DNA of 64,000 nucleotides from Frankia alni ACN14a (GTDB lineage: Bacteria; Actinomycetota; Actinomycetes; Frankiales; Frankiaceae): assembly GCF_000058485.1 (NCBI RefSeq), contig NC_008278.1, positions 5,822,962 to 5,886,961 of the forward strand. Reading direction: 5' to 3'. Numbering within the stretch: position 1 is the stretch's first letter; each line of letters starts with the position of its first letter. Below are positions 34,355 through 39,946 of the stretch, piece by piece. Made by a program: the position numbers and the translations under genes. The notes beneath the pieces are model-generated. The model made no database searches. It saw nothing but the letters and a program-made list of their open reading frames with translations, and had not been told where the DNA came from.

Positions 34355-34425
34355 CCCGCAGCCAACCCGCACCCGGCGGATGTCTCACCCGAGACTGACA
34401 GGGAGGGCATTGCGCAGAGCGCCGG

Positions 34426-34458
34426 CTCGGCCGGTGGCTGTGTCAGCCACCGGCCGAG
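34426..34458. terminator. Hairpin between convergent genes (bidirectional terminator)
   Basis: CTCGGCCGGTGGCT and AGCCACCGGCCGAG form a perfect 14-bp stem around GTGTC. It lies between the stop of the histidine phosphatase gene (34354) and that of the YVTN protein gene (34521). It lacks a U-run, as is usual in actinomycetes. Confidence 0.75.
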
Positions 34459-34520
34459 TGCGGGGTCGTGCTCTTGCGTTGTTGGAATGCGTTACTGCTG
34501 AGGGTCTGTCTTGTCTCTGG

Positions 34521-37500
34521 TCAGGGCTTCGGCTCCAGGGCAGGCGTGGGGGACGGTACGGGAGTCGGCTCCGGCGCCGGAAGCGGAGTCGGAACCGAGG
34601 TCCCGGAAGTGGTCCACGTGATCGTGACCTCACCGTTGCCGCCGTTGACGGTGCCGGAGTTGGCTCCGGTCGCCAGGGCTGGGTTCACGATGCTCGATGC
34701 GGCGAACGAGCTCCCGCCGGCGCCCCCGGCGCCGGCGCCCCCGTAGCCGCCGAAGGTGCCGCCGCCCCCGGCGCCGCCACCACCACCGAAGTACCCGCCG
34801 CCCGCGCCGCCGCCCGCGCCACCACCGGATGTGGTGGCGGTCGGGTTCGAGCAGGCGGGGGTGTACGTGCCGTTGCAGGGTTTGTTTCCGGCTCCGCCGG
34901 TCCCGCCGGCTCCGGAGATGCCGTCAGTACCGTCGCCGCCGCAGCGCGGATCGGTCAGCGGGTCACTGGGCGCGGGATTTCCTGCGCCATGGCGGCACGC
35001 GTTCAGTCCCCCGCTGCCTCCCGCCGTCTGGGTGCCGGCCTTGCCCGGAACTCCGGCGTTACCACCATCCACGGTCGCCCCGGCGTCGGTGCCGGCGTCG
35101 CCCCCGGCCCCGCCGAGCGCGTTGCCCTGACCGCCGACGCCGCCGGCGCCGCCGCCGCCGGCGGCGACCAGCACGCGGGTGGAGAGGCCGCAGGCGAGCG
35201 TGGCACACCCACCGGCGGTGACGCGGACGTCGGAGGAGCCGCCGCCGCCGGAGCCGTTGCCACCGTTGGACGCGGTTCCGCCGTTCGCACCGGAGGCGTC
35301 ACCGGGCCCACCTGACACGCCGGTGTTGGACCCACCGAACCCGCCGAGTGCTCCCGATCCGCCGGACGGGCCGTTGCTCATCCCGCCCGAGCGTGACGCC
35401 GCCGTTCCATCGGCGCCTCTACCCGCCACGTCCACCTGCAGGACCCGGCCGCCGGTCAGACCCGTCAGCGTCCCGGTCGCCTGGCCACCGCTGCCGCCGG
35501 GACGCCCGGTGATGTCCCCCGCGGGGGACGGGTGTGCCTCGTCACCAGCGATGAAGTAGTGCCCACCCTGGGCGCCGGTCGCCGTGATCTCGACCGAGCT
35601 CACACCCGCGGGCACGGTGAAGGTGTCCGATCCGACCGTGTCATAGGTGCAGGTCATGGTTGTCGTGCCGGACTGCGCACCGGTCTTCCCACACACCGGT
35701 CCGGCTGGTACGGCCGGCGCGGGGGCGATCGCAATTCCCACCGGTCGTTCACCGACGGAAATGGGGGCTCCGGCGGTGTTGGTTGCCACGTCGATCGGCG
35801 TCACCGAATTACTGTCGCGGTTGACGGCGTAGGCGGCTACGCCGTCCGGTGTGACCGCAATGGCGAACGGCTCGACACCCCCTGTCGAAATTGTAGCGCC
35901 AGGGGTGTTGGTGGCCACGTCGATCGGCGTCACCACGTTGTCCCGTTCGTTGGTGACGTACAGAGTCCTGCCGTCGGGCGTGATCGCGATTCCGACGGGG
36001 CGGTCGCTCACCGGAATTGCTTTTCCTGCGGTGTTGGTGGCCACGTCGATCGGCGTCACCGTGGCGCTGCCTGCGTTGGCGTTGTCGGTGACGTACACGG
36101 TCTTTCCGTCGGGTGTGATCGTAACCCACTGCGGGTTGTTCCCGGCGGGGATCGGCGTGCCGGCAGTGTTGGAGGCCACGTCGATCGGCGTCACCGTGTT
36201 GCTTGCGGCGTTGGCGACATAGGCGGTCCGACCGTCGGGCGTGATCACGATACCGTGCGCGTCGTTACCCACCGGGATGCGGGCGCGGGGAGTGCCCGTG
36301 GCCACGTCGATCGGCGTCACGTCATTGCTGGCGTTGTCCACGACGTAGGCGGTCCTGCCATTGGGAGTCACCGCGACTCCGAACGGGAACCGCCCAACCG
36401 GGATCGGCGTACCGGGAGTGTTGGTCGCGACGTCGATCGGCGTCACCGTGTTGTCGGCCCGGTTCGTCACATAAACCGTCTTGCCGTCAGGCGTGACGGT
36501 AAGCCCTCTGGGGCTCGCGCCGACCCTGATCGGGGTGCCAGCGGTGTTGGTGGTGACGTCGATCGGCGTCACCGTGTTACCGGTGTTGTTGATCACGTAA
36601 GCAGTGGCCGCGGCCGGCTTCGTGCCAGGGCCCTGCGTCGGCCCCGAGGTCGGAGTCGACGTCGGAGTCGACGTCGGGGACGTAGGCGACGCGGAGGGAC
36701 TGGTCGACGGGGTGGGGCTGGGCGACGCAGAGGTACCCCAGCTGATGGTGACCTGGCCGTTCCCGGTGTTGACGGTCCCGGTGTTGACACCGGTGGTCAG
36801 AACGGCAGAGGTCACCGCGGCGGACGTGAAGGAGCTGCCGCCACCGCCACCGGCACCCGCGCCGCCGCCACCGATGCTGGTGCCACCGCCGCCCGAACCT
36901 CCACCGCCGCCGAAGTACCCGCCACCGCCGCCGCCACCAGCGCCACCGCCCGATTCCGTGTCATCAGGGTTCCGGCAGGGCGGGTTGTGCTCACCCAGGC
37001 AGGCCTGGTTTCCCACGCCTCCGACGCCGCCCGTGCCGGCGGCGCCATCAGCGCCGTCACCGCCGAAACGCGGATCGTTGGGATCGGGGGGAGGCGGCGC
37101 CGCGTGCCGTCCAGGGTTGAGCCCCCCGGCCCCGCCCGCGGTCTGGCCGCCACCGCCCCCAGGAGCCCCCGGATGGCCACCGTCGACGACGGCACCACCA
37201 GCAGCGCCGGCAGCACCGCCACCAGCGCCGCCCGCGCCGCCCAGCGCGTAGCCCTGGCCACCCGTGCCGCCACCGCCGCCGCCGCCCGCGCCGACCAGCA
37301 CTCGATCCGCCAGACCACACGTCAGTGCCGCGCAGCCAGCAGCGGCGACCCGGACATCCGAGGAACCGCCGCCGCCGGCGCCGTTGCCGCCGTTGTTACT
37401 CGCGGTCCCGCCGTCGGAGCCGCCAGCGTCCCCCTTGACGCTGGCCACACCTCCGTTGGAGCCGCCGAAACCTCCCACGGCACCCTGCCCTCCGGACGGC

Positions 37501-37970
37501 CCGTTGTTCTTTCCGCCCGAGCGGCTGGCAGCGGTGCCGTCGGCGCCCTTGCCGGCGACGTCGACCTGCAGTACCCGGCCCGACGGCAGACCCGTGATCG
37601 TGCCGGACGCCTGGCCGCCGCCCCCACCGGCGCGGCCGGTGACATCTCCCACCGGCGAGCCACCGTGAGCAGCGTCACCGGCAACAAAATAGTGGCCGCC
37701 CTGGGCGCCGACCGCCGTGATCTGAACCCACCGTGCACCCGTGGGGATCGTGAAGGTGTCCGACCCGACCGTGTTGTAGGTGCACGTCGTCCCGCTGAGG
37801 ACACCCGATTTCCCACACGGCGACGGCGAAGAAGGTTCGCAGCCGGTCAGCCCCAGACTCAGCACCATGCCCAGCACCGAAACGGACCACGCGACGACAT
37901 GACGACGTGGTAGGACTATGCGTCTCCGTCGACAGCGTGTTCGCGATCCAAGAAAACCTGCCAAGTTCAA
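34521..37970 (-). CDS. Giant lipoprotein: glycine-rich domain, YVTN beta-propeller, glycine-rich domain
   Basis: From the TTG at 37970 the protein has 1,149 residues. A lipoprotein signal ends in SLGLTGC. Residues 52-415 form a first glycine-rich domain (CTYNTVGSDTFTIPTGARWVQITAVGAQGGHYF opening). A TSPTSTPT-type linker follows. About 460-765 are seven units of roughly 42 residues, each containing TPIDVATNT...VTPDGKTVYVTN, a YVTN-type seven-bladed propeller. About 770-1,120 repeat the first domain nearly copy for copy, and the end is a PEPTPVPSP tail without a sortase motif. It should be anchored outside the membrane. Ligand is unknown. No ATG or GTG is well placed, so the start is uncertain. 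Confidence 0.8.
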   Translation of the reverse strand: MNLAGFLGSRTRCRRRRIVLPRRHVVAWSVSVLGMVLSLGLTGCEPSSPSPCGKSGVLSGTTCTYNTVGSDTFTIPTGARWVQITAVGAQGGHYFVAGDAAHGGSPVGDVTGRAGGGGGQASGTITGLPSGRVLQVDVAGKGADGTAASRSGGKNNGPSGGQGAVGGFGGSNGGVASVKGDAGGSDGGTASNNGGNGAGGGGSSDVRVAAAGCAALTCGLADRVLVGAGGGGGGGTGGQGYALGGAGGAGGGAAGAAGGAVVDGGHPGAPGGGGGQTAGGAGGLNPGRHAAPPPPDPNDPRFGGDGADGAAGTGGVGGVGNQACLGEHNPPCRNPDDTESGGGAGGGGGGGYFGGGGGSGGGGTSIGGGGAGAGGGGGSSFTSAAVTSAVLTTGVNTGTVNTGNGQVTISWGTSASPSPTPSTSPSASPTSPTSTPTSTPTSGPTQGPGTKPAAATAYVINNTGNTVTPIDVTTNTAGTPIRVGASPRGLTVTPDGKTVYVTNRADNTVTPIDVATNTPGTPIPVGRFPFGVAVTPNGRTAYVVDNASNDVTPIDVATGTPRARIPVGNDAHGIVITPDGRTAYVANAASNTVTPIDVASNTAGTPIPAGNNPQWVTITPDGKTVYVTDNANAGSATVTPIDVATNTAGKAIPVSDRPVGIAITPDGRTLYVTNERDNVVTPIDVATNTPGATISTGGVEPFAIAVTPDGVAAYAVNRDSNSVTPIDVATNTAGAPISVGERPVGIAIAPAPAVPAGPVCGKTGAQSGTTTMTCTYDTVGSDTFTVPAGVSSVEITATGAQGGHYFIAGDEAHPSPAGDITGRPGGSGGQATGTLTGLTGGRVLQVDVAGRGADGTAASRSGGMSNGPSGGSGALGGFGGSNTGVSGGPGDASGANGGTASNGGNGSGGGGSSDVRVTAGGCATLACGLSTRVLVAAGGGGAGGVGGQGNALGGAGGDAGTDAGATVDGGNAGVPGKAGTQTAGGSGGLNACRHGAGNPAPSDPLTDPRCGGDGTDGISGAGGTGGAGNKPCNGTYTPACSNPTATTSGGGAGGGAGGGYFGGGGGAGGGGTFGGYGGAGAGGAGGSSFAASSIVNPALATGANSGTVNGGNGEVTITWTTSGTSVPTPLPAPEPTPVPSPTPALEPKP
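35725..36600 (-). repeat. Seven tandem propeller units of about 126 bp
   Basis: Each unit contains GTCGATCGGCGTCACC-like sequence (plus strand) at a spacing close to 126 bp and encodes one YVTN blade. The DNA identity at these points is high, so copy number may change by recombination. Confidence 0.8.
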
Positions 37971-38333
37971 GCACCCTCTTAGCTATGCACCCCGAAACAG
38001 ACTCCAGGGGCCAGAATTGTTTTTGTCAGACCGGATACGCACACGGTGCGGTCTGATCGGCGCGCCGCATTCCTCGCGGGAAGGTCGCCGGCCCGAAACG
38101 GCACCGGCTGTCCCGCGCGATGCCATTCCAGGTCGTCGGTCGCTCAGTCAGACGCAGACGAGGAGCTGACGGTGTCCTCGGTAACCGTCCAGGGTCGGGC
38201 GACGGTGGGACACCGGTCGGCGGACGATCCGTTCCACGGTTCTGAGACCGCGGGTGCCCTCATGCGACAGGGCATCGGGCGGCGGCGCTTCGGAGCCGGG
38301 GCCGCCGCCCGCGGACCACGAGGTTGGGTGTCC
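37971..38333. promoter_or_regulatory. Upstream region of the YVTN lipoprotein gene
   Basis: This 363-bp region is AT-richer near 37,980-38,030 than the surrounding genes, as expected of a promoter reading leftward. A 7-bp inverted repeat TCAGACC...GGTCTGA lies at 38026-38056. No gene is evident. Confidence 0.45.
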
Positions 38334-39404
38334 TCAGACGCCGTCGTTGGCGCACAGCGCCCAGACGTCGGAGTAGGTGCTCGGTGAGCTCATGCCTCCG
38401 GTGTGGGTGAAGGCCGTCCAGTACGCCGCCGTGGTGGTCCCGTTACTCACCGGATTACCGCTCGAGTCGCTGGGGAAGCTTCCGTTGAGGTGGTCGCCGC
38501 CTGAGCCTGGTCCGGTGAAGTCGGTCGTGGTGACGCTACCCCCGCTGATGGCAGCGCCCCCGCTGATCAACTTGCCGTCCCCGCTGGGGCAGTTGACCGT
38601 CACCTTCTGGCCCGTGCTCCCCGCCGTCGGACCGCTCGCCTCGCTGTAGTGCACCTTCACGGTGACACCACTGATGTTGATGTTACTTCCGCTGCAGATC
38701 GCGTAGACATAGGTCTCATTGGTGCTGTTGGTGCCGTTGGCCCACCCGACGGCGGTCCAGGAGTCGGGATTGGTCTCGCCATTGGCCGCGGCCTTCAGCC
38801 CGAAGTCATGCGCGGAGTTGTTGAAGGTCGGGAAGCTGGCGATCGGCTTGAAGTCGCCGACACTGGCCGGAGTGGCACGCGCACCGCCGCCCAGCAGGAT
38901 CGTGTTCGCCGGGCAGGTGGCGGTAACCCGACCCACCGTCGTCGCCGCGGTGGGTGCGTTGACCTTGTTCATGACCACCTGGGTGTGATTGATCAGACTG
39001 CTGGTGAAGCACACCGCGAAGGGGGTCGTGGAGAAGGAACTGTCGGCCTGGCCGCCGCTTCCACCGATCCCGAGCCAGTGGGTCACGTCGGTGCCGACGA
39101 CCCCGGTGGAACCGGTGTACTCGGAGGTACCGTCCGAGCTGGGCGAAGTACCCATCACATGGTTGCCGTTGCCGGTGCCGGTGGCCTGGTTGATCCCACC
39201 TCCGGAGATCAGGCCGCTGCTGCAGTCCGCGTGGGTCGAGATCTCTGAGTTCGCGGTCGAGGGACCACTGGTAGCTCCAGGTGATTTCACCGTGACAGCC
39301 ACGGTGTTGGCGTACGCCGCGGTCGGGATGGCCACGGCCAACGCGGCACCCAGGACGAGGACGGTTCCCGCTGTGCGCGTACGCACGGACAGATGTGCTC
39401 TCAC
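38334..39404 (-). CDS. Secreted protein of unknown function
   Basis: From the GTG at 39404, preceded by GAAGG, the protein has 356 residues. A Sec signal peptide (TRTAGTVLVLGAALAVAIPTAAYA) is followed by a threonine/serine/glycine-rich mature protein with no other membrane segment. Motifs recur: CSSGLISGGG, CPANTILLGGGA and CPSGDGKLISGGA, each followed by a long loop and ending near W or Y-x-x-C, so it appears to contain three related beta-type modules. I do not recognise the family. Confidence 0.75.
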   Translation of the reverse strand: MRAHLSVRTRTAGTVLVLGAALAVAIPTAAYANTVAVTVKSPGATSGPSTANSEISTHADCSSGLISGGGINQATGTGNGNHVMGTSPSSDGTSEYTGSTGVVGTDVTHWLGIGGSGGQADSSFSTTPFAVCFTSSLINHTQVVMNKVNAPTAATTVGRVTATCPANTILLGGGARATPASVGDFKPIASFPTFNNSAHDFGLKAAANGETNPDSWTAVGWANGTNSTNETYVYAICSGSNINISGVTVKVHYSEASGPTAGSTGQKVTVNCPSGDGKLISGGAAISGGSVTTTDFTGPGSGGDHLNGSFPSDSSGNPVSNGTTTAAYWTAFTHTGGMSSPSTYSDVWALCANDGV

Positions 39405-39946
39405 GTCAACCTTCGCGTCAGGGGTGTGGTGCGGGCAGATGCGCCCATGCACACCGGAAGGACAAAGTCCGAGGGGGGCACGGGTTGTGCGACGCTGCAC
39501 CAGGTCCGCAGATGCGGCCACATCGACGGTAATCGAGCCGCATCCACGTCGAACTTCTAGTCCGTGTGTCGCTCCGTGTCAAGAGGAGTCACGAATCGGA
39601 ACTGCCCTCGATCTTGCAGTCGGACCGCCTCGGGCGCCAGCACGACTGGTCGAGCAGCCGCCCAGGGGGGATCGCTACGGGTGCGGCGCGACCAGAGTGT
39701 GGATCTGGTTGTGATTACCGTGGTCGTTACGTCGTGATCAGTTTGGCTATTCACTGGAATGTTGCGGATGAAATTGGGCGTGAGTTGATCTCGTCGTATC
39801 TGCCGGGGATCGGTTCGGTCCGTATCCCCTCCGGTCATGGATGTAGTTCCGACTGATCCTGGTTGTAGGCCCCGAAATTGCCGTCGCCGGGTCTCCACGC
39901 GGCTCCCGACCAGGGACGATGCAGAGTAAGGACCGAACCAGAAAGA
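39405..39946. other. Long intergenic region with a local GC dip
   Basis: This 542-bp stretch lies between the antiporter stop and the secreted protein start. Around 39,700-39,800 the GC content drops clearly below the neighbourhood. A plus-strand open frame there (YVVISLAIHWNVADEIGREL) has protein-like look but no identifiable homology, start or ribosome binding site. It may be a transferred or decayed fragment. Confidence 0.4.

Follow-up and report, generated by a model that had tools for sequence, protein, structure and literature searches.

The ligand-binding fold of the ALK and LTK receptors, the TNF-like/glycine-rich ('TG') fold of their ectodomains (Pfam PF12810, ALK_LTK_GRD), has mostly been treated as an animal receptor domain, and structures of ALK fragments are titled as its ligand-binding region. 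Bacterial PF12810 proteins are already known, as are the fold itself and the YVTN β-propeller, and gp24 of cyanophage Pam3 has been likened to C. elegans ALK, its glycine-rich tip being proposed for host recognition (PMC9608196). Here we analysed 64,000 nt of the genome of Frankia alni ACN14a (NC_008278.1, positions 5,822,962–5,886,961 of the forward strand), hereafter the window, to whose numbering all coordinates below refer unless another genome position is given. Its minus strand carries, at 34521..37970, one open frame of 1149 amino acids (aa) with a predicted TTG start for a putative lipoprotein in which two glycine-rich (GR) domains, GR1 and GR2, flank a YVTN propeller (the GR-propeller-GR protein). 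GR2 is predicted to share the TG fold, and the gene is the second of two, lying directly downstream and on the same strand of a gene for a secreted protein that we name ADCS after a motif in it. Hand interpolation between published FRAAL locus tags would tentatively put the GR-propeller-GR gene at about FRAAL5410; a cold-shock gene, sought in the window as a landmark for this, did not turn up. The genome itself (G000) is one contig of 7,497,934 bases, on which the nifH frame ends at exactly 7420646, the begin coordinate published for nifH of F. alni ACN14a (PMC10252897); other G numbers denote other genomes and L numbers denote fetched loci.

The second glycine-rich domain is predicted to share the ALK/LTK fold

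Structure modelling covered GR2 (aa 760–1122; 34605..35693, minus strand), whose limits were set by alignment with GR1. A first model built from 14 closely related Frankia-type rows had a mean predicted local distance difference test score (pLDDT) of 35.9 across its glycine-rich part, whereas a template-free GR2 model from 32 diverse rows (19 of them from 31 virus loci, the other 12 loci being omitted as duplicate, partial or weaker; three Frankia-type copies were omitted too) reached a mean pLDDT of 66.3 and a predicted template-modelling score (pTM) of 0.73, with a predicted TNF-like sandwich and glycine-rich bundle. When the latter was searched against the PDB with Foldseek, ranks 1–18 were all ALK/LTK. 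VIA returned 12 ALK/LTK entries at Z 13.2–15.4 over 193–223 residues, followed by the cyanophage Pam3 fibre (Z 10.2) and the Bxb1 tail tip (Z 10.1) and then by matches at Z 4.1 or less; other folds missing from the VIA list were not taken as evidence. The model also matched 121 predicted viral proteins at E ≤ 0.001, and the motif order of the GR domain is that of bacterial and viral PF12810-type domains.

Sequence profiles pointed the same way. A paralogue in the same genome matches GR2 residues 1–118 at 51% identity and passes PF12810 at 40.2 bits, and, among the 296 genomes of the class, 26 have PF12810 matches, which exceed the cut-off in 24. A profile made from 17 of the 33 PF12810 matches listed, paralogue included, retrieved ALK/LTK chains and nothing else from the PDB (8 of the 8 listed up to E 10, at E 4e-11 to 2e-10). 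In hhalign, the window-type profile aligned with five non-Frankia GR domains at a probability of 98.2 and a score of 98, whereas 60 column-shuffled profiles scored 14 ± 2.5 (maximum 20.9) and the profile read backwards scored 27; with all 17 bacterial domains, paralogue included, the probability rose to 99.8. With composition correction on, hmmsearch scored GR1 at −12.9 and GR2 at −17.5, their reversed copies scoring −56 and −44, and each domain outscored every one of its 500 plain and its 500 glycine-fixed shuffles (means −55 to −68). A PDB search with the GR2 sequence alone gave no match.

Several results weigh against this assignment. Neither GR1 nor GR2 alone matched any family in Pfam and NCBIfam scans, and a PF12810 search of the F. 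alni genome missed both, neither rising over the curated cut-off of 24.5 bits. With composition correction off, 14 of 500 plain shuffles scored as high as GR1 and 10 of 500 as high as GR2, glycine-fixed shuffles did so in 50 and 68 of 500 cases respectively, and reversed sequences scored equally, a failure that counsels caution against over-reading sequence scores. Searched against the PDB, the window-type profile found three chains through glycine-rich stretches and no ALK/LTK, and these were rejected. As for the structures, the Foldseek TM-scores of the ALK/LTK matches were 0.32–0.44, and 91 of the 363 GR2 residues fall below pLDDT 50 even in the better model, the longest such stretch (GR2 107–145) consisting for the most part of an insertion absent from the virus rows. 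The GR domain is accordingly worded here as a predicted distant relative with the TG fold, and not as a member of Pfam PF12810.

The low pLDDT of the thin-alignment model, the lack of a domain library match and uncorrected scores no better than those of shuffles would also suit GR regions that are disordered low-complexity spacers, alike only as duplicated junk. The first-pass annotation of this DNA had named disorder, sought by structure prediction, as the outcome that would tell against its folded domains; given the diverse alignment, GR2 instead folds, at a pTM of 0.73 and with the ALK/LTK match. Together with the near-saturated synonymous sites and invariant cysteines of the two copies described below, this makes the spacer explanation barely credible.

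Related domains were seen elsewhere as well. Scans of viral contigs with profiles A1, A3, A5 and A6 found 0, 2, 28 and 1 relatives respectively, and ALK-like glycine-rich domains are present on the virus contigs of L151–L181, one of which holds two (L153, L161). In 50,697 phage records, tblastn at E 0.01 found no match to either GR2 or ADCS. Among other genomes of the class, L050, L053 and L051/L075 contain frames of 3464, 3322 and 2578 aa with PF12810 matches, five of them in the last.

An old duplication around a seven-bladed YVTN propeller

The first-pass annotation had read the near-identical ends of the two domains as signs that part of the protein was duplicated long ago on either side of a YVTN propeller of seven units. 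The duplication and its age are borne out, although the similarity is not limited to the ends: the whole 363-aa domain is duplicated. GR1 (aa 52–414; 36729..37817, minus strand) and GR2 align over their full length with 253 of 357 residues identical (71%), or 143 of 247 once Gly–Gly columns are removed, and their local score is 1313, where shuffling GR2 200 times gave 259 ± 18 and at most 325. At the 253 identical residues the third codon positions agree in 125 (49%), where codon usage alone expects 44%. Since synonymous sites are thus nearly saturated despite 71% protein identity, the two copies are old and kept alike by selection. In a tree of 17 rows, from eight proteins and the paralogue, all GR1s formed one clade and all GR2s another, with 100/100 support, so that the duplication either happened before these lineages separated or travelled along with the gene. 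All 14 GR copies have Cys at six shared positions, and a further pair is Cys in all seven GR2s but Gly and Phe in all seven GR1s (0/7 Cys); in the window protein it consists of aa 992 and 1010, which bound the stretch at 34941..34997 (minus strand).

The propeller (~aa 453–745; 35736..36614, minus strand) was located by library and PDB matches and repeat spacing, with its edges drawn by eye. TIGR02276, the NCBIfam YVTN repeat, matches seven stretches at E 1.1e-51 and 172.5 bits, over a cut-off of 27.85, so that the propeller belongs to this family, and seven 'TPIDV' units recur every 42–45 aa. In the PDB it matched the YVTN blades of the archaeal surface-layer protein 1l0q (E 9.1e-52). In a search of the whole protein against plasmids, 413 records matched, none at 80% coverage, and the ten listed places were propeller only. 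Three enzyme-named Pfam models passed their cut-offs here, namely Lactonase (61 bits; cut-off 21.7), SGL (32; 26.3) and Arylesterase (25.9; 21.3), as they might if activity resided in the propeller, as an enzyme of a lactonase-like or redox kind that the GR domains merely carry. In NCBIfam, however, the generic YVTN repeat was the only model over its cut-off and specific enzyme models fell far below theirs, hydrazine synthase beta reaching 113.8 of 560 bits, and we regard an enzymatic role as highly unlikely.

A predicted surface lipoprotein

Ahead of GR1, a lipobox (LTGC, aa 41–44; 37839..37850, minus strand) follows an Arg-rich and then a hydrophobic stretch, and of 12 N-termini compared, that of the window protein among them, 10 show a lipobox pattern. 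This leader supports the surface lipoprotein proposed in the first-pass annotation, and the protein is predicted to be lipidated and so anchored at the cell surface; it had also been called giant, for which 1149 aa is too few, though it is large. A Pro/Thr/Ser-rich linker (~aa 415–452; 36615..36728, minus strand), whose length varies among relatives, separates GR1 from the propeller, and a Pro-rich tail (aa 1123–1149; 34524..34604, minus strand) follows GR2. The C-terminus, inspected by eye, shows no LPXTG-like sortase signal; the tail ends in KP. About 60 nt past the stop codon we noted by eye a 15-bp perfect inverted repeat with a 3-base loop (34426..34458, minus strand), which has no T run and is absent from the terminator scan listing.

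ADCS and its partners with interchangeable heads

The first-pass annotation had the coordinates of the GR-propeller-GR gene right but missed that it is one member of a pair. Its upstream neighbour, ADCS (38334..39521, minus strand), has a longest open reading frame (ORF) of 395 aa, the true start being probably further in, and was described from its sequence and from library scans, in which it matched no family. ADCS probably holds three repeats of ~100 aa: repeats 2 and 3 align with a score of 72, above 200 of 200 shuffles (maximum 62), and the other two pairings lie within their shuffles (49, maximum 62; 73, maximum 74). A stretch of ~235 nt stands between the two genes in L041 (3425–3659) and L044 and is missing in the window, at 38030/38031.

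Matches to ADCS occur in 21 of 296 genomes, of which 18 belong to the same family as F. alni and two, matched strongly, to a different one, while one match is marginal. We fetched 28 loci around the stronger matches, a set that excludes the window, four strong ones (G006, G007, G009 and G014) and the short or weak ones, and in 28 of 28 a partner gene, which we classed by best match, comes after ADCS in the same orientation. The partner was a GR-propeller-GR protein in nine (L126, L129 and L130 end before the propeller in the fetched stretch), a GR domain with an immunoglobulin (Ig)-like domain in 14 (L133, L139 and L140 break off ahead of the Ig part) and, in five (L146–L150), an ADCS-like domain joined to that same Ig and C-terminal half. 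Disrupted frames were seen in the cassettes of L144 and L145, both with GR-Ig partners, and of L150, where the ADCS frame is broken (genomes G003, G233 and G019). At L134 (G014), three genes stand in tandem: ADCS, a GR-Ig gene and a GR-propeller-GR gene, the last of which is cut by the contig end soon after its start and shows no lipobox. The F. alni genome itself has a second ADCS cassette (C1 ~7031321–7034248; L012, L135) with a GR-Ig (Big_3_5) partner. As the ADCS-Ig proteins share their Ig and C-terminal half with the GR-Ig proteins, an ADCS-like head can take the place of a GR head. Because ADCS precedes every architecture fetched and the heads are interchangeable, we call ADCS a functional partner, probably co-secreted with the GR-propeller-GR protein, as far as gene order and sequence indicate.

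Distribution of the unit and signs of its exchange

Nine loci, from Frankia and Parafrankia records, carry named relatives. The order leader, GR, linker, propeller, GR and tail is kept in the seven that can be aligned over the whole protein and that we take as orthologues (L041, L042, L044 and L046–L049), L042 leaving its contig within the tail. At L043, from Ca. F. nodulisporulans, the GR gene is split into two ORFs, and L045 starts shortly ahead of GR2. A profile of the 14 GR copies matched 13 of the 296 genomes, F. alni included, all in the same family and from three genera, the match in G003 covering only 45 residues of a paralogue-type gene.

At the DNA level, the window and L041 share a two-gene block at 34399..39849 with differing flanks; L044 matches 34420–39849, so that both follow the window to the identical base 39849 and then diverge separately. 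In the other five named loci compared, the match starts at 34411–34571 and ends at 39517–39737. None of six tested genes that flank the unit in the window lies beside it in any of the seven loci, over stretches that reach ~6 kb to either side or stop where the contig does. Ranked by a 597-aa RpoB fragment, G011 comes first (100%) and G005 lower (98%), whereas by the GR protein G005 leads (95%) and G011, at 78%, is no closer than G023, which belongs to a different genus; in the tree, the copies of G011 (L049) pair with those of G023 (L047) at 100/99 support. A similarity ranking that contradicts RpoB, with flanking genes that are not shared, suggests that the two-gene unit has been exchanged horizontally, as a whole, between Frankiaceae. 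A transposition mechanism was considered and is not claimed: short edge matches occur in other Frankia genomes and in only two and one further copies in F. alni. Nor did an empty site emerge; in G012 the window's right flank lies on the same contig as the unit, ~18 kb off and on its other side.

A proposed surface binding role

The first-pass annotation had suggested adhesion, matrix or ligand capture, a role that fold and predicted location would fit. For a protein with a predicted lipid anchor and with two heads that have diverged on either side of a propeller hub, the simplest reading is a bivalent surface binder, and binding is favoured because the solved examples of the fold that have a stated role, ALK and Pam3 gp24, bind something. 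We consider it somewhat probable that the GR-propeller-GR protein is a bivalent surface binding protein, for adhesion or ligand capture, which works with ADCS. The lipobox leader would tether it outside the cell by its N-terminal lipid; lipid and flexible Pro/Thr/Ser linker would keep the propeller, a presumably rigid hub, off the membrane and within the wall; and the two TG heads, consistently set apart by the extra Cys pair of GR2, would hold a target at two sites, the target being a partner surface or else a ligand that is secreted. The unit would be exchanged whole, as expected of a surface specificity module.

Some observations fit this picture poorly. L047, with LAGS in place of the Cys, and L134 lack a lipobox, and the L047 relative may be secreted instead of lipidated. 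The gene is patchy, a GR2 search having matched 15 of 58 genomes including F. alni (G031 marginally, at E 3e-4); the exact right edge of the unit is common to only two of the seven named loci; and the argument for exchange uses one marker, RpoB.

Its main rival is a structural wall or matrix protein without a specific ligand, in which the glycine-rich bundles would serve to stiffen or coat the hyphae, the spores or the vesicles, with the propeller no more than a joint between them. YVTN propellers are known from a surface-layer protein (1l0q), and PMC13243192 backs persistent glycine-rich bundles in three mycobacterial proteins by simulation and discusses plant glycine-rich wall proteins. The solved structures matched at Z above 10 are, however, ALK/LTK ligand-binding domains or phage fibre and tail-tip proteins, and a patchy, exchange-like distribution with fixed GR1/GR2 differences fits specificity better, which leaves a wall or matrix role unlikely, if still to be taken seriously.

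A bolder version of surface binding, drawn by analogy with ALK, is that the duplicated receptor-type domain captures a specific secreted signal and that the cassette is swapped between strains. The signal could possibly be a plant peptide of nodulation, or ADCS might act as co-secreted ligand or co-receptor. We hold this to be quite improbable; were it true, bacteria would possess a receptor–ligand specificity module on the same fold as animal ALK.

Comparison with known systems

In the literature searched on ALK-type bacterial glycine-rich domains and Frankia YVTN proteins, which did not extend to subscription papers, we found no GR-propeller-GR surface protein, and likewise no ADCS pairing with interchangeable heads or signs of its exchange. 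What appears new is therefore the GR-propeller-GR architecture and the ADCS cassette, the latter defining an as yet unnamed family by its strict neighbourhood; the kinship with ALK/LTK and phage tails, the constant ADCS partner and the signs of exchange go beyond the first-pass annotation. A fold that would link animal receptors, phage tail tips and bacterial surface proteins is predicted twice over in one propeller protein on the outside of a symbiont that fixes nitrogen, alongside a secreted partner that is constant but as yet uncharacterised, and this gives surface recognition in Frankia a candidate open to testing. A replicating plasmid can be used to transform F. alni ACN14a, for which knock-outs are foreseen (PMC6769113).

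Among the known systems, the PF12810 ectodomain of ALK/LTK resembles GR2 in predicted fold and in motif order. The Frankia protein differs in having two copies around a propeller, with extra Cys-bounded loops, in being missed by PF12810, and in lacking matches to kinase, EGF-like or membrane-receptor families (kinase and EGF-like families gave none to E 1 across the whole protein in Pfam and NCBIfam). The surface-layer protein 1l0q shares its YVTN blades, the match being restricted to the propeller. The F. alni paralogue (C1 ~7032.4–7034.2 kb) likewise has an ADCS gene in front and a GR domain, there over the PF12810 cut-off, but this is a single GR, followed by a Big_3_5 Ig-like domain in place of the propeller and by C-terminal repeats, behind a leader in which we saw no lipobox by eye. 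The glycine-rich domains of Pam3 gp24 (7ypx) and mycobacteriophage Bxb1 (9d93) have a similar fold (Z 10); gp24 is a trimeric virion fibre with a helical shaft (PMC9608196), whereas the Frankia protein is a predicted cellular lipoprotein built on a propeller.

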